Translations under genes and position numbers: made by a program | Source: Candidatus Cloacimonadota bacterium | GTDB lineage: Bacteria > Cloacimonadota > Cloacimonadia > Cloacimonadales > Cloacimonadaceae | Assembly: GCA_020532515.1 (NCBI GenBank) | Contig: JAJBAY010000017.1 | Coordinates: 1 to 32,939 of the forward strand | Direction of reading: 5' to 3' | DNA: 32,939 nt | In this document: positions 20,297 through 32,586 of the stretch, in pieces | Layout: the number at the start of each line of letters is the position of its first letter | How positions within the stretch are numbered: the first letter of the stretch is position 1 | The notes under the pieces: model-generated | What the model saw: the letters and a program-made list of their open reading frames with translations, nothing else | Database searches by the model: none | What the model was told of the DNA's origin: nothing

Positions 20297-20392
20297 ATGA
20301 ATCGAAAAAGAGGCACGACCATAGGGACACTTGTGAAAGTCATAGTTCTTTCCACAGGATTACTGTTTAGTCACAAAGGGCACACAACATGA
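20297..20392 (+). CDS. 31-aa leader ORF, ATGA-coupled to the PLD-helicase gene
   Basis: ATG 20297 follows GGGAG at 5-nt spacing and encodes a basic start (MNRKRGTT) and one hydrophobic stretch (VKVIVLSTGLLF) over 31 codons. Its TGA (20390-20392) overlaps the helicase ATG (20389-20391). Layout suggests translational coupling; a separate peptide function cannot be judged. Confidence 0.4.
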   Translation: MNRKRGTTIGTLVKVIVLSTGLLFSHKGHTT

Positions 20393-23300
20393 GCAATTTC
20401 ATCACGAATTCCGGCCAGAAGAATTTGAGAACCCGGCTTTCGACCCTTATTAAAGAAAGCGAAGAGCTCAAAATCCTGGTTGGCTTCTTTTACTTTTCCG
20501 GCATAACGGAATTGATTGACAGTTTGAAAGAAAATCCCGATCTCACCCTCAAGATCCTGGTAGGGCTAAATATAGATGCGCAAAGCTATGGACTGGTGGA
20601 ATATGCCGATAAGGCAAGCAAAAACCGCATTGAGCGCATCGAGGATTATCATGAATCCGTGCTTGCGGCTTTGAATACAGATATTTTCGACAATGAAACT
20701 TTTTATGAGCAGGCCCGCTTCATCATAGATCAGATCATAGCGGATAGGATCATTATCCGTAAAACCCTGCGCCCAAACCATGCCAAATTGTATCTCTTCC
20801 ATCTCAATGCCTTGCAGGTAGCGCGCAACCAGCTTTTTATCACTGGCAGCAGTAATCTCAGCAAAGCCGGGCTCAGCGATCGGGAAGAATTCAATGTAGA
20901 AATTGCCGATTACGGTTTTGAGCAGGCTGAACAGTATTTCGATGAACTCTGGGACACTGCCATTCAGATCACCGAAGCAGACAGAGAAAAGACCAGACTG
21001 CTGCAGAATATCCAGGAAAAGACTCTGCTCAAATCCGTCCATCCCTTTGATGCCTATATGTTTGTGGTTAAGACCTGGCTGGATAGTTTCTATAAATATG
21101 AATCCAGCCGTTTCATCTCGCTCCTCTTGGAAAGAAAAGGCTATATACCCTATAAATACCAGATCGATGCAGTCACTCAGGCTATGTCCATCATCGAAGA
21201 GAATTCGGGTGTGATCCTGGCCGACGTGGTGGGTCTGGGCAAATCCATCATTGCCGGGCTCATCGCGCGCAAGCTGGATAAACGGGGCATCATCATCTGC
21301 CCTCCGGGCTTGATTGGTGACGATAGCGCCAGCTCCGGCTGGAACAAGTACAAAGAAGATTTTGAGCTTTACGATTGGGATGTGCGCTCCGGGGGAAATC
21401 TGGATGCCATCCTGGATTATCTGGAAACCGCACAAGGCATTGAAGTGATCGTGGTGGACGAAGCTCATCGCTATCGCAATAGCAATACCGAAAGCTATGA
21501 AAAGCTGAAATCCATCTGCCGCGGCCGCAAAGTGATCCTGCTCACGGCTACGCCTTTCAATAATTCCCCGGCGGATATCCTGGCCATGCTGAGCCTCTTT
21601 ATCGTTCCCAAAAAGTCCACCATCACGCTCAGCAGCAACCTTGTGGACCTCTTCCGCTTTTACAACAGCCTCTTCAAAGACCTGGCCTTTATCCGCAAAA
21701 ACTGGCAGTCCAAAGACTCTGCCAAGACAGATGAAGCGCAAAAGAAATACGGTGCTTTATTTGGTGATGAACCGGTCAATATCACAAAAGTGATTAAGCG
21801 TTCATCCTTGCTTTCCGGGCAGATCCGTGAGGTCATCGAACCAGTCACAATCCGCAGAAACCGCTTGGACCTGCTGGGCGATCCGGATTACCAGGATGAA
21901 GTGGGCAAGCTCTCTCAGATCGATAGTCCCAAAGAGTGGTACTACTGCTTAAGCGTGGAGCAATCTGCCTTTTATGACCGGGTGATAGAGCTCTATTTTA
22001 CCGATAACCCCGATAGCGCAGACCGCTTCAGAGGCCCCATCTACAAACCCTACACCTACGAGGGTGATCCCTCTGCCTCTGCCAAGATGAGCAGACAAGA
22101 GCAAATAGACCGCCTCAGCCAGGACAACCTCTATGATATCATCCGGCGACAATTGGTAAAACGCTTTGAAAGCTCCTTCGGCGCTTTTCGCCAGAGCATC
22201 GTAAATGCCCGCAATTCTTATCTAAAGATTCTCAAATTTATAGAAGACTCGGGCGGCCGCTATGTGCTGAACCGCAAGCTGATCAACAAGGCCGAATCCG
22301 GAGATGCGGATTATATTGATGAGCTGCTCAGAGAATTTGCCGAAGAAAACAAGGATAAAGACGGCAAGAAAGACCGGGTTTATGATGTAAATAAATTCCG
22401 CTTCAAAGAGCAATTCTTTGAGGATATCGCCTCCGACCTCCGGCTTTTCGATAAGATCATCTCCGAGATCGATGCCCTGGAGCTGGTAAATAACGATCCC
22501 AAGCGCCTGGCCCTGATCGATAACGTGAAAGCAGTGCTTGGCACTCCTCCCAAAAAAGGCGAGCCGGCCCCCAAACTTGTGATCTTCTCCGAATATGCCG
22601 ATACCGTAAAATATCTGGAGACAGATTTGACTGATAACTTTGGAGAGCGGGTCCTGGTGATCTCCTCCGGCATCAGTAAAACCCACCTTGAAGAGATCAA
22701 TAGCAATTTTGACGCTGCCTACTCCAAGAAAAAGCAAAAAGACCAATATGATATTCTGCTGGCCACAGACAAGCTTTCGGAAGGATTCAACCTGAACCGC
22801 GCCCTTATGGTAATCAATTACGATATTCCCTGGAATCCGGTGCGTGTGATCCAACGCGTAGGGCGCATAAACCGCATCAGCAAAAAGGTCTTTGAAACTC
22901 TGTATATCACCAATTTCTTCCCCAGCGAGCAGGGAGCAGACATCGTAAAAAGCCGCGAAATAGCTTCGCATAAGATGTTTATGATTCATCAAACTTTAGG
23001 TGAGGACGCCCGCATCTTTGATGCTGAGGAAGAGCCCTCCCCGGCCAAACTCTTTGCCAAAGTGCAGCGCAATCCATATGAACTCGATGCTGAAAGCCTC
23101 TATACCCGGCTGAAAAAACAAATGCGGGAATGGGAAGAAATGTATCCAGAACGCGTAAAGGCTCTGGAGGAAATGCCGGTGAGGATCAAGACCGCCAAAG
23201 CCGATCTGCAAGATGCGCTTATCATGTTCATCCGCAAAGGCAAGCTCTTCTGTGTAAGCCAGGACTTTGTGGATGAGAATATGCAGCTCTTGCCCTTGCC

Positions 23301-23745
23301 CATAGAAGCAGCTCTCAAAAGGATCCAGTGCAGCCCGGATACAGCGCAGCTTCCTCTGAGCAATAGCTTCTGGACAAACTACAAAATGCTGAAGGAAGAA
23401 GCCGAAAAGTTCAGCTTCAAACAGTCCCAACAGAGTAACTCCACGAAAGCCTTCAACCTGCTCTCCTCCCTTTTGCAGCAGGATGTCCCTGAGCTGCTGC
23501 CCTGGCGCACCTTTATCATCATGCTACGTGAAGATATTCAGGACTATGGGACCTTGGCAGAATACACGCTCAGGACCATCAGCGATTGGGATAATAATGG
23601 CAAACTGGATTATTCGCACATAGCAAAAGAGCTTAAGGTCCTGAGCAGGAAATTGGGCAAGAACTACCTGAAACAGGTAAAAGAAAGCCTCAAAGCCTAT
23701 GAACAACAGGTGATTGTGGCAGTGGAGAATAGGATATGGACATAA
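20389..23745 (+). CDS. SNF2-family helicase with N-terminal phospholipase D-like domain
   Basis: 1118 aa. Residues 1-190 are a phospholipase D-like module with HAKLYLF (H131, K133) and GSSNLSKAG (153-161), a layout seen in helicase-linked PLD nucleases. Residues about 250-850 form a SNF2/RAD54-type ATPase: Walker A DVVGLGKS (279-286, K285), DEAH (357-360), LTATPFNNS (385-393), and C-terminal motif QRVGRINR (822-829) preceded by TDKLSEGFNLNRA. Only one HxK motif is present, so a dimer would be needed for PLD catalysis. Start ATG 20389 has AAGGG 8 nt upstream and overlaps a leader ORF. The 3' end overlaps the methyltransferase by 10 bp, so the pair is co-translated. Role: DNA translocase and probable nuclease of a restriction-like defence system (inference from domains and context). 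Confidence 0.93.
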   Translation: MSNFITNSGQKNLRTRLSTLIKESEELKILVGFFYFSGITELIDSLKENPDLTLKILVGLNIDAQSYGLVEYADKASKNRIERIEDYHESVLAALNTDIFDNETFYEQARFIIDQIIADRIIIRKTLRPNHAKLYLFHLNALQVARNQLFITGSSNLSKAGLSDREEFNVEIADYGFEQAEQYFDELWDTAIQITEADREKTRLLQNIQEKTLLKSVHPFDAYMFVVKTWLDSFYKYESSRFISLLLERKGYIPYKYQIDAVTQAMSIIEENSGVILADVVGLGKSIIAGLIARKLDKRGIIICPPGLIGDDSASSGWNKYKEDFELYDWDVRSGGNLDAILDYLETAQGIEVIVVDEAHRYRNSNTESYEKLKSICRGRKVILLTATPFNNSPADILAMLSLFIVPKKSTITLSSNLVDLFRFYNSLFKDLAFIRKNWQSKDSAKTDEAQKKYGALFGDEPVNITKVIKRSSLLSGQIREVIEPVTIRRNRLDLLGDPDYQDEVGKLSQIDSPKEWYYCLSVEQSAFYDRVIELYFTDNPDSADRFRGPIYKPYTYEGDPSASAKMSRQEQIDRLSQDNLYDIIRRQLVKRFESSFGAFRQSIVNARNSYLKILKFIEDSGGRYVLNRKLINKAESGDADYIDELLREFAEENKDKDGKKDRVYDVNKFRFKEQFFEDIASDLRLFDKIISEIDALELVNNDPKRLALIDNVKAVLGTPPKKGEPAPKLVIFSEYADTVKYLETDLTDNFGERVLVISSGISKTHLEEINSNFDAAYSKKKQKDQYDILLATDKLSEGFNLNRALMVINYDIPWNPVRVIQRVGRINRISKKVFETLYITNFFPSEQGADIVKSREIASHKMFMIHQTLGEDARIFDAEEEPSPAKLFAKVQRNPYELDAESLYTRLKKQMREWEEMYPERVKALEEMPVRIKTAKADLQDALIMFIRKGKLFCVSQDFVDENMQLLPLPIEAALKRIQCSPDTAQLPLSNSFWTNYKMLKEEAEKFSFKQSQQSNSTKAFNLLSSLLQQDVPELLPWRTFIIMLREDIQDYGTLAEYTLRTISDWDNNGKLDYSHIAKELKVLSRKLGKNYLKQVKESLKAYEQQVIVAVENRIWT

Positions 23746-26700
23746 CTAAGATTGTGCTACCCGAGACCTTTTCTGTAAGAAACTGGGTCGATTACTTTGA
23801 GATGGCATCCAAGGTCTTTACCGAGCGAGTGGCGCAGCTCTCAAGATACAATGATGATGATTTTACGGATATTAACACCCTGGGTGCGCTTGATTTTGAA
23901 GAGGCCAGCACTTGTAAAATATACCTTGTTCAAGTGAAGAGAGCTCTTAGCGAACGGGCTTCCCGAAGAAAGCAGTTTAGTAAAGCCACCGAGATCATCA
24001 AACAGGAGAATACGCAGGCCGGGCTCTTTGTCTTTTACGATTCAGCTAATTGCTTTCGCCTGAGCCTGGTCTATCCTATCTACAAGGGCATCAAACGCAG
24101 CTTTAGCAATTTCAAAAGACACTCCTTCTATGTAAGCGATAGCTTGCCAAATAAGACCTACCGGTTGCAACTCGGCAAATATGAGCTGAACAGCATGGCA
24201 GAGCTTAAGGATGCCTTCTCTGTGGATAAGGTCTCAGATGTCTTCTATCAGGAATTTGAAAAGGAATACCAAAACTTGCAAGCCGGAATAAGCCACCTTT
24301 ACAAGCGGGAAGTAACAGAAGATCAAAAGAGCAATTTTGCCTTACTTTTTGTGCTTAGGATCATCTTTCTGGGCTTTGTACAAAAGAAAGGCTGGCTGGG
24401 TGATAACCCCAATTTCATCAAAGACTTTATCAAAAGCTATGATCCCTCACAGCACCCCCTGGGCATGTATCAGGATCTGCTCTGTCCACTCTTTTTTACC
24501 GCTCTGAACTCTGCCCCTTCAGCCAAAAACAGATATGGTTTTCCCAATATCTCCGAACCCTTCAAATCCCAGTTGGTTTCTGCGCCCTACCTGAATGGCG
24601 GACTCTTTCGCAAGCATCAGGATTATGATACAGATGCGCTCATCATCGGTAATGAAGCAATTGAGCACTTTACCGGGTTCCTCTTCAGTTACAATTTTAC
24701 CCTGGAAGAGAATACCCTCTACGATGAAGAATTGGAGCTGAATCCGGAGTTTTTGGGCATCATCTTTGAAAAGCTGATCAACAAAGAATACGGAGCGATA
24801 TATACTCCCCGCCAGGAAGTGGACTTCATGTGCCGCATCGCTTTAGTGAAATATCTGCAACAAAACTCTCTTCCCTCCATCAGTCTGGAAAACCTCTATA
24901 AGCTATTCTTTCCGGAATATGGAGACGAAAGCGAACAAACAGCGGGAGATTTCACCGAGCTTGAAGCCAAAGACCTGCTGAACAAGCTGGAGACCGTTTC
25001 TGTCTGCGATCCTGCCATCGGTTCCGGAGCCTTTGCCGTGGGCATGCTGAATGTGATAGATGAGATCGAATGCAGCATTTACCAGAACTTTCTGCCTGGT
25101 GCTTCTATCGACAGCCCCTATGAGCGCAAAAAACGCATTATCTTCCAGTCCCTATATGGGGTGGAAGTTAAACAGTGGGCAGTGTGGATCACCCAGCTAA
25201 GGCTATGGATAACCTTGCTCATCGAAGCTGAAGATAGCTTCAAACACAGTGAAGATCCGCTACTGCCTTCTTTCGATTTTAAGATCAGGCAGGGAGATTC
25301 ATTGATTCAAATGCTGGGCAATAATCCTTTCCCTATCTCTGGTGAAGGCATCATCTCTGCTGGCACCAAGAAGAAAATAGCCGCTCTGATGAAGCTAAAG
25401 ACAGAGTACTTCTTCAATAAATGCCCGCTTAAATTACATGAAATAGAACAAGCTCAAACAAAACTCTATACTGACATCTTGAGCGACAGGATAAAAGAGC
25501 TAACTGCTAAGCTCTCTCGCTATGAAAATGCCGGTAAGCAGGAAGTGCAAACAAGTTTCCTGGAAGGGAGCTACCAGAGCGAAATCGAGCTCACCAGCCG
25601 CGAACAGGAACAGAAAATCTCAGAATTGAAGTTTCAAATCTCCCAGATTGATCACGAAATCCACCAGCTTGGTAAGCACAACCTACCCTTCATCTGGCGA
25701 ATTGACTTTCCTGAAATATTCATGCAAAAGGGAGGGTTCGACATTGTGATCGGCAATCCGCCTTATTTAGCTCAAGAGCATATTAGTGATCCTCTCGGTA
25801 AAATAGGTAAATCTGCCTATAAGGGCTTGTTAAAGAAAATGACCAATCAGGATTTTCCTATAGATATTCCAGAAATCAGCATAAGCGGCAAAAGTGATCT
25901 ATATACCTTCTTCTACATCAGAGGTCTGAAGATATTAAACGATGCCGGTATCCTTTGCTATATCTGCTCGAATTCCTGGCTTGATGTGGCATTCGGGGCT
26001 TGGTTGCAAAAGCTCCTTTTAGAACGATGCCCTATCCACTTCATCATCGACAATCTGGGTAACAGAGCATTTAAAAATGCAGATGTCAATACGATTATCT
26101 CGGTAATCGGAGCTCCGCAAAAGATGGTGAGAGGCGATGATAAAATTCGCTTTGTGGCATTCAAACTGCCTTTCGAGGAATCCCTTTACACAGAAAACTT
26201 CATTACTATAGAAGAAACTGAGTCCCGTAAAGAGTATGATGATCTGCGCATAAATAGCATCGACAGAGACAAACTGGTAAAGGAAGGATGGGAAAACAGT
26301 GATAAAGATAAATATAACGGAAGCATGTGGGGAGGATTCCACTTAAGGGCACCACACATTTTGATCAGAATTCTTGAGAACTGCCATAGTAAGCTATGTC
26401 TTTTAAACGAAATAGCCCAGATAAGAGGATATATTCACGATAATAATGTTGGCGACCAGCACCCCAAGCAACTTTTTGTTAAGTCGGTTAAGGACATATC
26501 TGTTTTAGGGGTAGATCGCAACACTGAGGGCGTTAAAACAGCTGGGATACGGTTTTCGAAAATGAACGATCTGTGCGCACCAATACTATTCCCAAGAACA
26601 TTAGGATCAAGGCATTTGGTGTTAAGGAACCTGGACAACGTGTATTATAAGGAGTTTTATAAAGTGATCCCAAATATACCTGAAATGGCAGACAGCATAT

Positions 26701-27038
26701 TTGCACAATTGAACTCATCATTTTGCATATTGCAAAGAGAGATTATTGGTTTATCAAATCTTGGCGACGGAGCAATAAAGTTTTCTATTCAGAGCATAGG
26801 CCTTTTTAGGCTTATACGCCAATTAAGCAGCCTTGAGCTTAGTGAAGTCATCCCGTTTCTTTTAACAGAGCCAGTTGATGACATTAAAGATGAGTTATCT
26901 AAGAGCTACAGAATGCATCTTGATGATATCGTCTTTTCTAAGCTTGGATTAGATAGAAATGAACGGAAGCAGTTCATGGATATACTACATCTTACCGTCG
27001 AACAACGACTATCAAGGGCATCAAAGAAAGCAAGATAA
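23736..27038 (+). CDS. Eco57I-like N6-adenine DNA methyltransferase (restriction-modification/defence)
   Basis: 1100 aa. Motif I is DPAIGSGAF (425-433) and motif IV is NPPY (674-677, in IGNPPYLAQEH), the gamma-class N6-adenine methyltransferase pattern of Eco57I/BREX-PglX-like enzymes. A predicted helical insertion (about 565-650) separates them. The N-terminal 350 aa have the VKRALSERASRRKQF segment common in this family; I see no convincing PD-(D/E)XK there. The C-terminal third (after about residue 870) is probably the TaqI-like target-recognition region. Codon use becomes clearly AT-rich from about 26340. The ATG overlaps the helicase gene by 10 bp, so both are made together. It probably marks host DNA so that the helicase/nuclease partner attacks unmodified DNA. 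Confidence 0.92.
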   Translation: MDITKIVLPETFSVRNWVDYFEMASKVFTERVAQLSRYNDDDFTDINTLGALDFEEASTCKIYLVQVKRALSERASRRKQFSKATEIIKQENTQAGLFVFYDSANCFRLSLVYPIYKGIKRSFSNFKRHSFYVSDSLPNKTYRLQLGKYELNSMAELKDAFSVDKVSDVFYQEFEKEYQNLQAGISHLYKREVTEDQKSNFALLFVLRIIFLGFVQKKGWLGDNPNFIKDFIKSYDPSQHPLGMYQDLLCPLFFTALNSAPSAKNRYGFPNISEPFKSQLVSAPYLNGGLFRKHQDYDTDALIIGNEAIEHFTGFLFSYNFTLEENTLYDEELELNPEFLGIIFEKLINKEYGAIYTPRQEVDFMCRIALVKYLQQNSLPSISLENLYKLFFPEYGDESEQTAGDFTELEAKDLLNKLETVSVCDPAIGSGAFAVGMLNVIDEIECSIYQNFLPGASIDSPYERKKRIIFQSLYGVEVKQWAVWITQLRLWITLLIEAEDSFKHSEDPLLPSFDFKIRQGDSLIQMLGNNPFPISGEGIISAGTKKKIAALMKLKTEYFFNKCPLKLHEIEQAQTKLYTDILSDRIKELTAKLSRYENAGKQEVQTSFLEGSYQSEIELTSREQEQKISELKFQISQIDHEIHQLGKHNLPFIWRIDFPEIFMQKGGFDIVIGNPPYLAQEHISDPLGKIGKSAYKGLLKKMTNQDFPIDIPEISISGKSDLYTFFYIRGLKILNDAGILCYICSNSWLDVAFGAWLQKLLLERCPIHFIIDNLGNRAFKNADVNTIISVIGAPQKMVRGDDKIRFVAFKLPFEESLYTENFITIEETESRKEYDDLRINSIDRDKLVKEGWENSDKDKYNGSMWGGFHLRAPHILIRILENCHSKLCLLNEIAQIRGYIHDNNVGDQHPKQLFVKSVKDISVLGVDRNTEGVKTAGIRFSKMNDLCAPILFPRTLGSRHLVLRNLDNVYYKEFYKVIPNIPEMADSIFAQLNSSFCILQREIIGLSNLGDGAIKFSIQSIGLFRLIRQLSSLELSEVIPFLLTEPVDDIKDELSKSYRMHLDDIVFSKLGLDRNERKQFMDILHLTVEQRLSRASKKAR

Positions 27039-27042
27039 AACT

Positions 27043-27294
27043 ATGGAATTCGAAACTCCCTCAGCTCAAAACATACAAAGTGCGCAGATTTCTCCTGATT
27101 TGCAGATCCATGCAGAATCTGAGGCTTTTTTAAAAGCCAGTCCTATCCCTGATAGGAAAGCAATTGATAACATAATGTTCAAATCTCTTGGCTTAAACGT
27201 TCAAGAGGCTAAGGGTCTATATGCAGGTTTGCTGGAGTTAACTGCCAGTAAGCCAAGGAAAGCAAGGATATTTACACCATGTTTATCCAACTAA
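27043..27294 (+). pseudogene. Orphaned C-terminal tail of a second methyltransferase
   Basis: An 83-codon ORF with no ribosome-binding site, starting 2 bp after the methyltransferase stop codon. Its segment KAIDNIMFKSLGLNVQEAKG is clearly similar to the C-terminus of the preceding enzyme (LDDIVFSKLGLDRNERKQ), and both end in a Ser/Lys/Arg-rich stretch. Best explanation: the specificity region of the methyltransferase was replaced and the old tail left behind. It could also be a small translated partner. Two tight palindromes lie inside: GGCTTTT-tt-AAAAGCC (27123-27138) and TCCTATC-cct-GATAGGA (27141-27157). Confidence 0.55.
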
Positions 27295-27325: not shown

Positions 27326-28447
27326 ATGAGCGATAGCGATTTTTTTGAATCTTTTTGCATACACACAGAAGTGAAACTGAAACTATATGGAGATTATCTT
27401 CAACGTTACCTAATGATACTTCTTAGGGTCGGTTCTATTCACTCGATCCATATATACGACTTGTTTTGCGGTAAGGGAGAGACTGACGAAGGTCAGACAG
27501 GCAGTGCATTGATAGGTGTCCAACATGTTCTTTCCTCAGTAACAGAGCTTGCAACAAATAAGAATATTTATTTGCATTTAAGTGACAATAACCAGCAATA
27601 CTGTAATGAGCTTGAGAATAGGATTGGACAAATGCAGAAACCAGAGAATGTCATAATCGATGTCAAGTGCGTTGACTTCAAAGATGCCGCACAAGAAGCA
27701 ATAGCAAAACACAAATCTTCGCATAGCACCAGATACGAGAGAGTTCTTTATTTTATCGACCCATATGGGTACAAAGACACTGATCCGCAGACTCTTTTAG
27801 AAATCAAGCAGAACTGTAATTCTGAGATTTTCCTGTTTCTGCCAGTTATCTTCATTTATAGATTTATCAGCGGTGAAAAGGCTAATAGATCTATCGGATT
27901 GTGGAGATCCTTCATTGATTATCACGGAGACTCTTCGGATTTAAGAAGCATCGTTTGGGGTATAACCAAACGATTTTCCGCAGAAGGATTTCATGCTGGA
28001 TACTTTATCCTTACTAACCAAATTTGCGGCAATGAATACGCTATATTCTTTGTCTCTTCAAACTTACGGGGGCTAGAAAAGTTCAATGAAGTGAAGTGGG
28101 ACAATGATAGGGTAAGTGGTAGTCAAATGGGCAGAGACTATACATTTTCCATGGCTTCGTGTATAGAAGATGATCTTCACATGATTGTAATAGAAGAGCT
28201 TAAACGCAATATATTGTGTCACATAGCATCTATTAAAGATCGGAGAATTAATAACGGACAGCTTTACAGCTTCATTGTCCATGAAGGCTTTCTCCCCAAG
28301 CATTTCACGGAAATATGGAATATTGACAAGTTTCTTAAACGTGCATTTACAACAAGACGAAATAGAGGGAATTATATTAGCTATGAGCATTTTAATGAGG
28401 AACCATTAGTATGGTTTTCCCTGAAGGAATCAGATGTGGATATATGA
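27326..28447 (+). CDS. tcmP: Three-Cys-motif partner protein (TcmP-like)
   Basis: A 373-aa protein matching the TcmP family, which typically accompanies a three-Cys-motif partner, often on mobile or defence islands. Motifs resemble a Rossmann methyltransferase: IYDLFCGKGETDEGQTGS (43-60, motif I-like) and FIDPYGYKD (143-151, motif IV-like), so a nucleic-acid modifying role is plausible but unproven. The ATG at 27326 has an excellent GGAGG at 4-nt spacing. Its stop overlaps the next ATG in ATGA, so translation is coupled to the radical-SAM-like partner. The gene is AT-rich, unlike the helicase. Confidence 0.85.
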   Translation: MSDSDFFESFCIHTEVKLKLYGDYLQRYLMILLRVGSIHSIHIYDLFCGKGETDEGQTGSALIGVQHVLSSVTELATNKNIYLHLSDNNQQYCNELENRIGQMQKPENVIIDVKCVDFKDAAQEAIAKHKSSHSTRYERVLYFIDPYGYKDTDPQTLLEIKQNCNSEIFLFLPVIFIYRFISGEKANRSIGLWRSFIDYHGDSSDLRSIVWGITKRFSAEGFHAGYFILTNQICGNEYAIFFVSSNLRGLEKFNEVKWDNDRVSGSQMGRDYTFSMASCIEDDLHMIVIEELKRNILCHIASIKDRRINNGQLYSFIVHEGFLPKHFTEIWNIDKFLKRAFTTRRNRGNYISYEHFNEEPLVWFSLKESDVDI

Positions 28448-29208
28448 AAATAATTCAAAGGAAATCGCTATTATATAAAACTGGAGTCGAATACGGTGAT
28501 TACACCATCAACCACGTGCTTGGTTGCTCGCATGGTTGTACTTATCCCTGCTATGCTTTTATGATGGCAAGAAGATTTGGCAGAGTACGGGATTATAATG
28601 ACTGGTTGGAGCCTAAGCTCGTGGGAAACTCTATAGAACTGCTAAAGAAAGAAATTCCACGGTACCAGAATAAAATCAAATCGGTTCACCTATGTTTTAC
28701 CACCGATCCTTTTATGGTGGGTCATCCTGAGGTTCAGGAAATGAGTCTTGAGATTATTGGATTGTTAGATCACTATGGTATCAAATGCACTGCACTTACC
28801 AAGGGGATTCTACCCATTGAGTTATCGAAATTTGATGCGAAGCATGAATGGGGTGTTTCGCTCGTGTCTTTAGATGAAGGTTTTAGAAAACAATATGAGC
28901 CATTTTCATCTCCGTATGATGCTCGTGCAGATAGCCTACTTAAGCTCCACGAGAAGAGATGCAAAACATGGGTGAGTATTGAGCCCTACCCAACACCAAA
29001 TATAGTGAAGCAAGATCTCATGAGCATTCTGGACAAGGTTTCCTATGTCGATAAGATCATCTTTGGGAGACTTCATTATAACAAACTCGTGGCTGCATAC
29101 AAAGGATATCAAGCATTTTATAATGATTCGGTAGATATTGTGGTAGATTTCTGCCAACACAAGGATATAAACTATCACATTAAAGCTAGGACATTAGTGG
29201 AATCATAA
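28444..29208 (+). CDS. Radical-SAM-like protein with CX3CX3C motif (TcmP partner, SPL-like)
   Basis: 254 aa. Near the N-terminus GCSHGCTYPCYAFMMARR has C28, C32 and C36, that is CX3CX3C, one residue longer than the standard radical SAM CX3CX2C. The rest (HLCFTTDPFMVGH, the TALTKG strand, VSLVSLDEGFRKQYEP, WVSIEPYP) follows the partial TIM barrel of spore-photoproduct-lyase-like radical SAM proteins, which bind a 4Fe-4S cluster and SAM. The start is chosen at ATG 28444, overlapping the TcmP stop, rather than an upstream in-frame ATG (28411) that lies inside TcmP. It is coupled to TcmP, suggesting one complex or pathway. Substrate unknown; nucleic acid modification is an inference. Confidence 0.83.
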   Translation: MKIIQRKSLLYKTGVEYGDYTINHVLGCSHGCTYPCYAFMMARRFGRVRDYNDWLEPKLVGNSIELLKKEIPRYQNKIKSVHLCFTTDPFMVGHPEVQEMSLEIIGLLDHYGIKCTALTKGILPIELSKFDAKHEWGVSLVSLDEGFRKQYEPFSSPYDARADSLLKLHEKRCKTWVSIEPYPTPNIVKQDLMSILDKVSYVDKIIFGRLHYNKLVAAYKGYQAFYNDSVDIVVDFCQHKDINYHIKARTLVES

Positions 29209-29453: not shown

Positions 29454-29783
29454 ATGCAAATTATCTTTACCACTAAGAAGATGCAAAAGGCATGCTCAAG
29501 CGAAAGAGAGATGCTAAGAATATATGGTGATAGCTGTTCCAAGAAGCTTAAGCAGAGATTGGCAGAATTAGAAGCTGCGGAAAATATGGGTATGATACCG
29601 CCATTTGCTAGGTGTCATCCTCTGACTGGCAAGCTTAATGGAAAATATGCAGTGGATCTGGCGCATCCTTACCGGCTGATATTTGAGCCGGATTGTGAAG
29701 AATTGCCACTAAAAGCAGACGGTGGACTGGACCTAAACAAGGTAACCAGCATTATTATAAAAGACATAACAGATTATCATTGA
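29454..29783 (+). CDS. higB: HigB/RelE-superfamily toxin
   Basis: A 109-aa protein of the RelE/ParE/HigB toxin fold, likely a translation-dependent mRNA interferase. The N-terminus has the usual beta strand MQIIFTTKK followed by a helical pair (KLKQRLAELEAAENM), and the core strands read LNGKYAVDLAHPYRLIFEPD and VTSIIIKDITDYH, the latter matching the family's C-terminal I-x-D-x-H region. Ribosome-binding site AGGATA precedes ATG 29454 by 4 nt. The toxin-first order and the antitoxin start 12 bp after its stop are typical of HigBA. Confidence 0.85.
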   Translation: MQIIFTTKKMQKACSSEREMLRIYGDSCSKKLKQRLAELEAAENMGMIPPFARCHPLTGKLNGKYAVDLAHPYRLIFEPDCEELPLKADGGLDLNKVTSIIIKDITDYH

Positions 29784-29795
29784 CCAGGGGGAGTG

Positions 29796-30869
29796 ATGAG
29801 CAAGAGCAAACGATACGAGTTCAAACCCAATTATGCGGTGCTTCCGGGAGATTCCTTGCGTGAAGCGATAGAGTATTTGGGAATGAGTCAGGTGGAATTT
29901 GCCCAAAGAATGGGAATTACCGAGCAAAGCTTGGTTCGCATTCTTAATGGCGAACAAAAGATAAGCTACGAGACTGCATCGAGTCTTGAGCTGGTTACAG
30001 GTACTGCCAGCGAGTTCTGGATCAATCTGGAAGCTCAATACCAGAAACAATTGCAGATTGAGGAGCAGCAGAAATCAAAAGAAGCGTTGGCAGCATGGTT
30101 GAAACAATTTCCGATAGCGAGTCTGTGTAAACTGGGTTACATCAAAATTCATGAGGACGTGGTGCTTCAGGCCAGGGAGCTCTTGAGCTTTTTCAGAACC
30201 AGCTCGATCATTACCTTCGATAAAGATGTGGAAAGAATAATGGCCGCAGCCCGTACTACTGCAGCATACGGAACCACTGCAGTTCTGGCTGCTACCTATA
30301 TTTATATGGGCATTAAGGATGCTGAGGAATTGCAGGTTGCACCTTACAATAAGGCAAGATTCAGAGCGGTTCTCAAAGAAGTAAAGATCATGACTCAGAA
30401 TCCCCCAAAAGATTTCGCCATAAAACTGCAAGAACTATTTGCCTCTGCGGGAGTAGCTCTGGTGTATGTTCCTCTTATCAAGGGTGTGCATTTCAATGCC
30501 GTGTGTAAATGGCTATCGCCGGATAGAGCTATGATTGTTGCAAGCAACAAAGGTAAAGCCGAAGACATATTCTGGTTTTCACTCTTTCATGAAGCTGCAC
30601 ACATCCTGCTGCACAGCAAAAAGCAGATCTTTATCTCAGATTCATCGCCCGAAAACCCTAAAGAGAAGGAAGCAGATGAATTTGCAGCAAACTTCCTAAT
30701 TCCATCTAGACACAACAGGAGGATAATAGCTGTAAGTTCAGAAGAAGAATTGAAAGAACTGGCCAAAGAGTTTAGAGTTTCAGAGGGTATCGTGGCTGGA
30801 CGCTACCACTATCTTACCAATAAGTGGCACAAATTCAGGCACCTGATCAGGAAAATTGATTGGGAATAA
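29796..30869 (+). CDS. higA: HigA-like antitoxin fused to an ImmA/IrrE metallopeptidase domain
   Basis: 357 aa. An N-terminal helix-turn-helix of the XRE/HigA type (GMSQVEFAQRMGITEQSLVRILNG, about 28-51) gives DNA binding and presumably toxin neutralisation. The C-terminal half is an ImmA/IrrE (DUF955) metallopeptidase with the zinc motif HEAAH (265-269) and a downstream EKEADEFAANFLIP with E292 as the probable third ligand. Such peptidase domains often cleave a repressor or sense a signal, giving regulated derepression. ATG 29796 follows AGGGGG closely and is preferred over the GTG at 29793. The gene ends 10 bp before the nuclease ATG. Confidence 0.9.
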   Translation: MSKSKRYEFKPNYAVLPGDSLREAIEYLGMSQVEFAQRMGITEQSLVRILNGEQKISYETASSLELVTGTASEFWINLEAQYQKQLQIEEQQKSKEALAAWLKQFPIASLCKLGYIKIHEDVVLQARELLSFFRTSSIITFDKDVERIMAAARTTAAYGTTAVLAATYIYMGIKDAEELQVAPYNKARFRAVLKEVKIMTQNPPKDFAIKLQELFASAGVALVYVPLIKGVHFNAVCKWLSPDRAMIVASNKGKAEDIFWFSLFHEAAHILLHSKKQIFISDSSPENPKEKEADEFAANFLIPSRHNRRIIAVSSEEELKELAKEFRVSEGIVAGRYHYLTNKWHKFRHLIRKIDWE

Positions 30870-30879
30870 GGGATTAGAT

Positions 30880-32586
30880 ATGCCAAAGATATGTTGCATA
30901 GACTTAAAGCAGTCAGATTTAGATGTAATAAATGATAAGTTTGATGATGTCTTTGTTGGGACTTTAGGTAATATTTTAACGATAGGATATAAACGTCAAT
31001 ATGATAAGCACCCTTTATTGTTAGGCTTTGAATTTCCGGAGAATCTGCATGAGTATGATGTTCTACTAATTGACCTTGGAAACAAAACTATCATAGACTA
31101 TGATAAGCAAGTGCAGGATGATATAACAAGAAGAGGAACAAACCGAGAAGTACTAGTATGTCGATACCCTCAGAATCAATTTGATCCCAGACCCTTATCT
31201 TCTAGTATTCTAAAATATAGGATATGGGAGACAAATAAGAATATGATAATAGTGATATTCGCATCTAATGACTATGAAGAAAAGTACCACATAGCAGATG
31301 ATATTAGCGAACTCGATCATACAACAGATCAAACATACAAGCTTTGCGACATCATTTGGGGTGTAAATTCGGAAGCACATTCAGGAACGAAAGTCTCCTT
31401 TTGCGATGAGTTAAAAAACAGCAAGTTCTGCGATATCATTAGCAAATATACTAGTGATTTAAGGTATGAAAGTGCCTTCGATATGCCAACTCAATATGAT
31501 GATCAAGAGAAGAAGAATATTATATTAAGTAATTATTTTCCGATACTACAATCTAATGTCGGAGAGATTGTTTCATTTGCAGCTCAGTATGACAATAAGA
31601 TGTTTTATATACTTCCGCATTTCAATTTGAAGGGGAAGCTTATAGTAGATCTTATGGACAATTACTTTCCTGCTACTCATCCTGATTTGTTTCCAGAAAG
31701 TACCTTGAATGCTTGGTTGGACATTGAAGTGTATAATGTCCCCAAGCATAAAACCCTGCTAAACAACAAGCAAGATTTAATGAGAGAATATGAAACTAAA
31801 ATACAGAAGGCTAATGATGAAATATCTAATAACTTACAACTCCATTCATGGTTACACGATTTAATAACCAAAGATGGCGATGAATTGAAATTAGCTGTGA
31901 TTAAGTACCTGGAATATATTCAATTCGATAAAGTAAGAGATATGGATGCACAAGGCATCAAAGATGAAGACATCCAAATTATCACAGGGAACAAGTTAAT
32001 AATTACAGAAGTGAAAGGCTTAGGTGGCACATCAAATGATGCAAATATTTTGCAGGTTACAAAGCACTTACCTAAAAGGATTAGACAGTTTAGAGAAAGA
32101 GAAGTCTCTGCATTATACATTGTAAATCATCAAAAGCATCTTGAACCATTAAAAAGGGTGTTTAACCCTTTTGAAGAGAGACAACTTGACCTTGTTGATG
32201 AAAGAGATCTAGGTATGGTTACCACATGGCAGCTGTTCTTAACGTATAAGTATCTTGAGGAGGGTGTATTCTCAAAGTCAGATATAAGAGAACAGATTAC
32301 TAATCATTCGTTCATTACTTTTATGCCTCTTGAAAATTATCAAGAATTCAGAGTTAGTAAAGTTTACAAGGATAAGGCTGTAGCAAGCATAGATATTGTT
32401 GATTTTGAAGTGTCTATTGGACAAGATATTGTCATTTTCAATGATCATTTTATTATGGATAAAGCAAGAATAATATCGATTCAAAAAGGTAACAATCAAG
32501 TTGAAACTATATCAAATGGGAAAATTGGTATTGTATGTGGATTACCTTTTACAGAAGGTAAATCTATATTCTTAAGAAAGGCTTAG
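30880..32586 (+). CDS. Predicted PD-(D/E)XK nuclease with C-terminal EF-Tu domain II-like barrel; unknown family
   Basis: 568 aa. Around residues 335-380 a helix (LKLAVIKYLEYIQFDKV) leads into D364 (EDIQIITG) and E377-V-K379 (IITEVKGLGG), the D...ExK signature of restriction-endonuclease-like folds. Residues about 495-568 resemble the beta-barrel of EF-Tu domain II or peptidase U32 C-terminal domains (SIGQDIVIF.. IISIQKGNNQVETISNGKIGIVCG... GKSIFLRK). The first 300 aa start with a possible Rossmann strand pair (ICCIDL, YDVLLIDLG) and are unrecognised. Start ATG 30880 has AAGGGA at 6 nt, better than an upstream TTG at 30856. It is the last gene of the plus-strand block, markedly AT-rich. Likely a defence effector nuclease; target and trigger unknown. 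Confidence 0.75.
   Translation: MPKICCIDLKQSDLDVINDKFDDVFVGTLGNILTIGYKRQYDKHPLLLGFEFPENLHEYDVLLIDLGNKTIIDYDKQVQDDITRRGTNREVLVCRYPQNQFDPRPLSSSILKYRIWETNKNMIIVIFASNDYEEKYHIADDISELDHTTDQTYKLCDIIWGVNSEAHSGTKVSFCDELKNSKFCDIISKYTSDLRYESAFDMPTQYDDQEKKNIILSNYFPILQSNVGEIVSFAAQYDNKMFYILPHFNLKGKLIVDLMDNYFPATHPDLFPESTLNAWLDIEVYNVPKHKTLLNNKQDLMREYETKIQKANDEISNNLQLHSWLHDLITKDGDELKLAVIKYLEYIQFDKVRDMDAQGIKDEDIQIITGNKLIITEVKGLGGTSNDANILQVTKHLPKRIRQFREREVSALYIVNHQKHLEPLKRVFNPFEERQLDLVDERDLGMVTTWQLFLTYKYLEEGVFSKSDIREQITNHSFITFMPLENYQEFRVSKVYKDKAVASIDIVDFEVSIGQDIVIFNDHFIMDKARIISIQKGNNQVETISNGKIGIVCGLPFTEGKSIFLRKA

Follow-up and report, generated by a model that had tools for sequence, protein, structure and literature searches.

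What might a methyltransferase-like protein and a radical-SAM-like protein with an irregular cluster motif be doing side by side, and is the irregularity genuine? The question is raised by two genes in the window, by which we mean the whole stretch of 32,939 nucleotides analysed here, part of a Candidatus Cloacimonadota draft genome of 2.33 Mb in 150 contigs (G000). The features concerned are:

27326..28447, + strand: tcmP, a class I methyltransferase-fold 'three-Cys-motif partner' of 373 aa (TIGR04474, E 7.4e-33, 114.6 bits against a curated cut-off of 53; PADLOC PDC-M30A, E 2.4e-62; AlphaFold2 pLDDT 88.5, with class I methyltransferase folds returned by the PDB search)
27458..27478, + strand: TcmP motif I, DLFCGKG, residues 45-51 (among aligned relatives, D45 is kept in 53/53 and G51 in 54/54)
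27758..27766, + strand: TcmP motif IV-like DPY, residues 145-147 (D145 and P146 in 56/57; Y or F in 56/57)
28444..28447, + strand: ATGA, the overlap of the tcmP stop and the start of the radical-SAM gene, read from the sequence
28444..29208, + strand: SPL-like radical-SAM protein of an uncharacterised subfamily, 254 aa (AlphaFold2 pLDDT 93.6; top PDB match spore photoproduct lyase; Radical_SAM below threshold; 377 relatives in one genome scan)
28522..28557, + strand: cluster motif GCSHGCTYPCYA, CX3CX3C through C28, C32 and C36, with inserted P35 (invariant in 117/117 loci; one residue more than in CX3CX2C relatives, DUF5131 and spore photoproduct lyase)

The start at 28444, as opposed to 28411, fits the start sites of relatives. 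A reading made from the sequence alone had given these coordinates and cysteines exactly; the codons lie at 28525-28527 (C28), 28537-28539 (C32) and 28549-28551 (C36).

The irregular spacing is not a chance or local quirk of this contig, because it is kept throughout the relatives, across many phyla and on viral contigs. We collected relatives from related genomes, from a genome collection (377 relatives, of which 80 were kept) and from viral contigs, and all 117 extracted loci carry GC.HGC.YPCYA, or CX3CX3C following TGVEYGD; one viral locus (L145) has FPCY in place of YPCY. A sequencing error or local oddity was thereby ruled out, and the loss of cysteines among homologues that would have spoken against the sequence-only reading did not occur. 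In the 67-sequence non-redundant alignment, G27, C28, H30, C32, P35, C36, Y37 and A38 are all invariant. Distribution is patchy (15 of 98 related genomes) and hosts include Cloacimonadota, Bacteroidota, Bacillota, Spirochaetota, Actinomycetota, Nitrospirota, Planctomycetota, Pseudomonadota and others; a large number of these hosts come from anaerobic environments. Named examples are Mitsuokella multacida DSM 20544 (L089) and Agathobacter ruminis (L100). That the motif is one residue longer than CX3CX2C was also borne out: P35 is a single insertion before the third cysteine relative to canonical TcmP-linked radical-SAM proteins with GC.HGC.F-CY (profile alignment, 99.6% probability), and likewise relative to DUF5131 (C6C2C; 87.8%) and to spore photoproduct lyase (80%). 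A 40-protein tree places the CX3CX3C members on one side of a single branch (96/92), which is compatible with a single origin of these sequences, although the order of the outgroups, where branches are long, is unsure. A published instance of the same spacing, given for NifB in one review, is apparently a misprint, as CX3CX2C is given elsewhere for the same protein.

Because the spacing lies outside the usual CX3CX2C, the extra residue might have abolished cluster binding and left the radical-SAM protein as a structural partner alone. We consider this very improbable: the three cysteines and the inserted proline are invariant in 117/117 loci, unlike what decay would produce, and on these grounds a decayed cluster was rejected as unlikely.

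With the 67-member alignment as input, AlphaFold2 returned a confident overall model of the radical-SAM protein, and to that extent the modelling failure that would have counted against the sequence-only reading did not occur either. The closest PDB entries to its fold are those of spore photoproduct lyase (SPL; TM 0.68-0.69), followed by other radical-SAM enzymes; every one of the 19 matches at E 1e-3 or below is a radical-SAM enzyme. The SPL-like fold proposed from the sequence is thus supported at the level of the model, and the window protein is predicted to have the partial TIM-barrel fold of radical-SAM enzymes. In this superfamily the third cluster cysteine is expected just before a helix, and in the model it immediately precedes helix 37-44. 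The protein scores 24.2 bits against the Pfam Radical_SAM gathering threshold of 29.5, and PF20903 (spore photoproduct lyase) is absent among its Pfam matches up to E 0.1. PDB sequence searches with the radical-SAM and TcmP profiles gave nothing significant. In PHROGs, the radical-SAM protein matches uncharacterised families (best phrog_13321, 1e-21) and TcmP matches none. The PA0069/Rv2578c family and the radical SAM mobile pair A/B proteins of NCBIfam give a partial, SPL-like match to the window protein (best E about 1e-8), which scores far under their curated cut-offs.

A role in DNA repair or direct reversal of damage is one reading suggested by the nearest solved fold: the pair might act on lesions much as spore photoproduct lyase does, TcmP being the lesion- or site-binding partner, and both the top structural match and a profile match to SPL sequences speak for it. 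We nevertheless judge this reading improbable. The similarity to SPL is distant, the neighbours of the pair are restriction and defence genes, none of them repair genes, and a highly variable TcmP suggests diversified recognition. Compared as a known system, SPL gives a weak profile match (80%, E 1e-5) and is a CX3CX2C protein of about 340 aa with no known TcmP partner.

That TcmP should stand beside a three-Cys radical-SAM protein is already known, both from the name of TIGR04474, which calls TcmP after its three-Cys partner, and from PADLOC PDC-M30 and PDC-M41, uncharacterised defence candidates that consist of TcmP and DUF5131 (the phage Gp37/Gp68 family). Our system shares with these candidates the arrangement of TcmP next to a three-Cys radical-SAM protein, a TcmP that is PDC-M30A-like in the window and PDC-M41A-like in others, and a partner that aligns full-length by profile. 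It differs in the partner. DUF5131 proteins have CX6CX2C and match M30B/M41B at 1e-113 or better, whereas the CX3CX3C window protein gives weak, partial matches over about 50-80 residues (1e-4 to 1e-3; for PDC-M30B, E 5.6e-4 over residues 12-64 only) and reaches 19.3 bits against a DUF5131 cut-off of 28.9. These sequence comparisons indicate that the system is a variant of the PDC-M30/M41 kind in which another radical-SAM subfamily replaces DUF5131. Nearest by profile (99.6%) are CX3CX2C radical-SAM proteins of Nostoc and haloarchaeal plasmids, which also have an adjacent TcmP, but they carry GC.HGC.FCY without the inserted proline and are about 26-28% identical to the window protein. One of them, on Nostoc plasmid pC052_C (L132), is encoded divergently from its TcmP, and the two lie beside the BREX genes brxA and brxL. 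We found no functional study of TcmP or its three-Cys partners in the literature searched, where TcmP appears only as annotation. In Sinorhizobium meliloti, a table of NolR-affected genes lists a TcmP gene beside that for the phage-defence helicase Hna (SMa2243/SMa2245; PMC12445080).

The methyltransferase-like motifs ascribed to TcmP from the sequence alone hold up as well: D-x-[FM]-x-x-x-G and DP[YF] are kept in nearly all relatives, and TIGR04474 recognizes each of the 57 upstream proteins that were aligned. Among the fold matches of the TcmP model are RNA methyltransferases, KsgA and TrmR for instance, which raises the possibility that the pair modifies tRNA or rRNA. There is precedent for a methyltransferase and a radical-SAM enzyme acting in sequence on RNA, since in wyosine synthesis the radical-SAM enzyme TYW1 takes a methyltransferase product as its substrate. 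RNA may yet be the substrate of the pair, but we give little credence to an RNA-modifying pair in the style of wyosine synthesis, for its patchy spread, its presence on viral contigs and its restriction-modification (RM) neighbours misfit a housekeeping role.

How firmly are the two halves joined? A TcmP-family ORF lies alongside the radical-SAM gene in 110 of the 117 loci, and the adjacency of TcmP to a three-Cys radical-SAM-like partner holds in the window itself. Among the seven loci without one, four are contig ends (L014, L028, L049, L125) and three are true absences (L060, L063, L081). The coupling by ATGA overlap is present and TcmP accompanies the family, but the claim that the overlap implies a single function asked too much of it; the overlap alone is insufficient, and co-occurrence across many phyla despite the swapping of TcmP is the stronger argument for a joint function. 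This swapping is pronounced. Across 56 loci, the median identity is 64% (51-83) for the radical-SAM protein versus 19% for TcmP, and in 22 of the 38 locus pairs whose radical-SAM proteins are at least 75% identical, TcmP identity is 25% or less; between the window and one relative (L009), the values are 79% and 15%. Such a pattern, drawn from sequence comparison, is as expected if the radical-SAM part carried out a shared chemistry and TcmP provided recognition. In eight loci (L058, L069, L074, L076, L115, L116, L118, L122), TcmP genes in tandem, two per locus, precede a lone radical-SAM gene and a type III Mod gene, an arrangement that fits TcmP as an interchangeable targeting part. Two further split TcmPs, in L051 and L113, appear to be broken genes.

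The defence setting suggested from the sequence is also evident in the genes that follow the pair. Of the 67 non-redundant loci, 38 have a same-strand gene that begins within 100 nt downstream, and 22 of these 38 genes were assigned to RM from Pfam, from PADLOC or because they cluster with a gene so assigned: 12 type III Mod, two Res, three HsdM, two GmrSD and one each of M.EcoRI, HindIII and MvaI/BcnI. As a control, 0 of 86 genes in ten contig stretches of one genome, the window's own, match RM models, and at most five match any defence model. The control stretches (L175-L184) were chosen arbitrarily, and PADLOC matches in them are to mad2, mad3, a CARF-ADA protein and an RT-protease. Other downstream neighbours of the pair are Mrr-like (sub-threshold), PDC-S11, PDC-M24B and Abi_2. 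At one locus, the ORF that immediately follows the pair (L092:2613-4190:+) joins a restriction endonuclease domain of the MvaI/BcnI type to a tyrosine integrase.

In the window, the pair is preceded on the same strand by a PLD-SNF2 helicase gene (20389-23745) and an Eco57I-type methyltransferase gene (23736-27038), which overlap by 10 bases and resemble HKD+Snf2 (C3a139) and DISARM-like defence genes. A short ORF at 26959-27294 resembles the C-terminus of this upstream methyltransferase (BLASTP E 0.001) and is perhaps a gene remnant. Downstream come a HigB/HigA-IrrE pair (29454-30869), whose HigA-IrrE protein, encoded with a HigB-like toxin, matches PADLOC PD-Lambda-2_B (E 3e-28), and an overlapping 576-aa ORF, for which we found no family match. 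The HigB-like, HigA-IrrE and 576-aa ORFs (29454-32586) are possibly a defence operon.

Could the pair simply be the cognate methylase of an adjacent restriction enzyme? We rejected this simple version of the idea: one TcmP subtype is found beside the unrelated MvaI/BcnI, GmrSD, HsdM, HindIII and Mod genes. TcmPs that are 75-80% identical adjoin MvaI/BcnI, GmrSD and HsdM genes, and Mod-Res genes exist without the pair, so it is not a simple modification half; among viral Mod loci, the CX3CX3C pair is present with YPC in 6 of 18 and with FPC in one more. As its specificity is untied to any one RM type, the pair is a module found in association with many defence systems.

The same facts would suit a stand-alone anti-phage system of the PDC-M30/M41 kind, whose target in an infected cell would be the nucleic acid of the phage or a nucleotide, with the proximity to RM genes reflecting no more than the clustering of defence genes. 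TcmP matches PDC-M30A/M41A, neighbours include non-RM defence candidates (PDC-S11, PDC-M24B and Abi_2), the pair is bound to no single RM type, and the nearest downstream genes in the window are a HigB/HigA-like pair. We regard this as a real possibility, albeit on balance an unlikely one: the PADLOC candidates are themselves identified through guilt by association, and operon-like linkage together with fusion to a nuclease-like domain suggests more than island clustering. The fusion occurs in L012 and L013, both from Cloacimonadota relatives, in L028, from a Bacteroidetes MAG, and in L026; in these loci the radical-SAM ORF extends to 610-621 aa with a C-terminal domain of about 370 aa bearing a PDW...IEVV pattern; in another locus (L011:423-1547:-), this domain is encoded as a separate, overlapping gene. 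Its resemblance to PD-(D/E)XK nucleases is a guess based on the sequence pattern, and neither Pfam nor the PDB gave the domain an informative match.

The explanation that we favour, tentatively and at slightly less than even confidence, is a mobile two-component module: probably an enzyme pair of defence islands that modifies or repairs nucleic acid, most likely DNA. In this module, C28, C32 and C36 of the SPL-fold protein would ligate a [4Fe-4S] cluster, and the protein would use SAM to form a 5'-deoxyadenosyl radical, while TcmP, with its class I methyltransferase fold and highly variable sequence, would select the target and might methylate it. Together, the two would modify or repair nucleic acid within defence islands, often sharing an operon with RM genes. 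The sequence and model evidence for such a module comprises the invariant motif, the near-constant presence of TcmP, the constant and swapped halves, the RM neighbours, a predicted fold near that of the DNA-acting SPL, and the nuclease-like fusion. Against it, defence-island clustering alone could account for much of the RM neighbourhood, and GmrSD, which cuts modified DNA, is an awkward neighbour if the pair modifies host DNA. The occurrence of Mod-Res without the pair, a fused domain that lacks Pfam and PDB support, and a control drawn from one genome also count against it. A bolder form of the proposal, in which CX3CX3C is a new cluster-binding motif and interchangeable TcmPs guide a radical-SAM enzyme that makes or edits a carbon-centred DNA modification alongside diverse restriction systems, we hold to be speculative and rather doubtful.

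TcmP is widespread, as are its three-Cys partners, and proteins such as the one described here are under-annotated, as Pfam Radical_SAM scores this one below threshold. An invariant CX3CX3C would add one spacing to those of the radical-SAM superfamily and, if the substrate is DNA, the pair would tie radical chemistry to restriction and phage defence.
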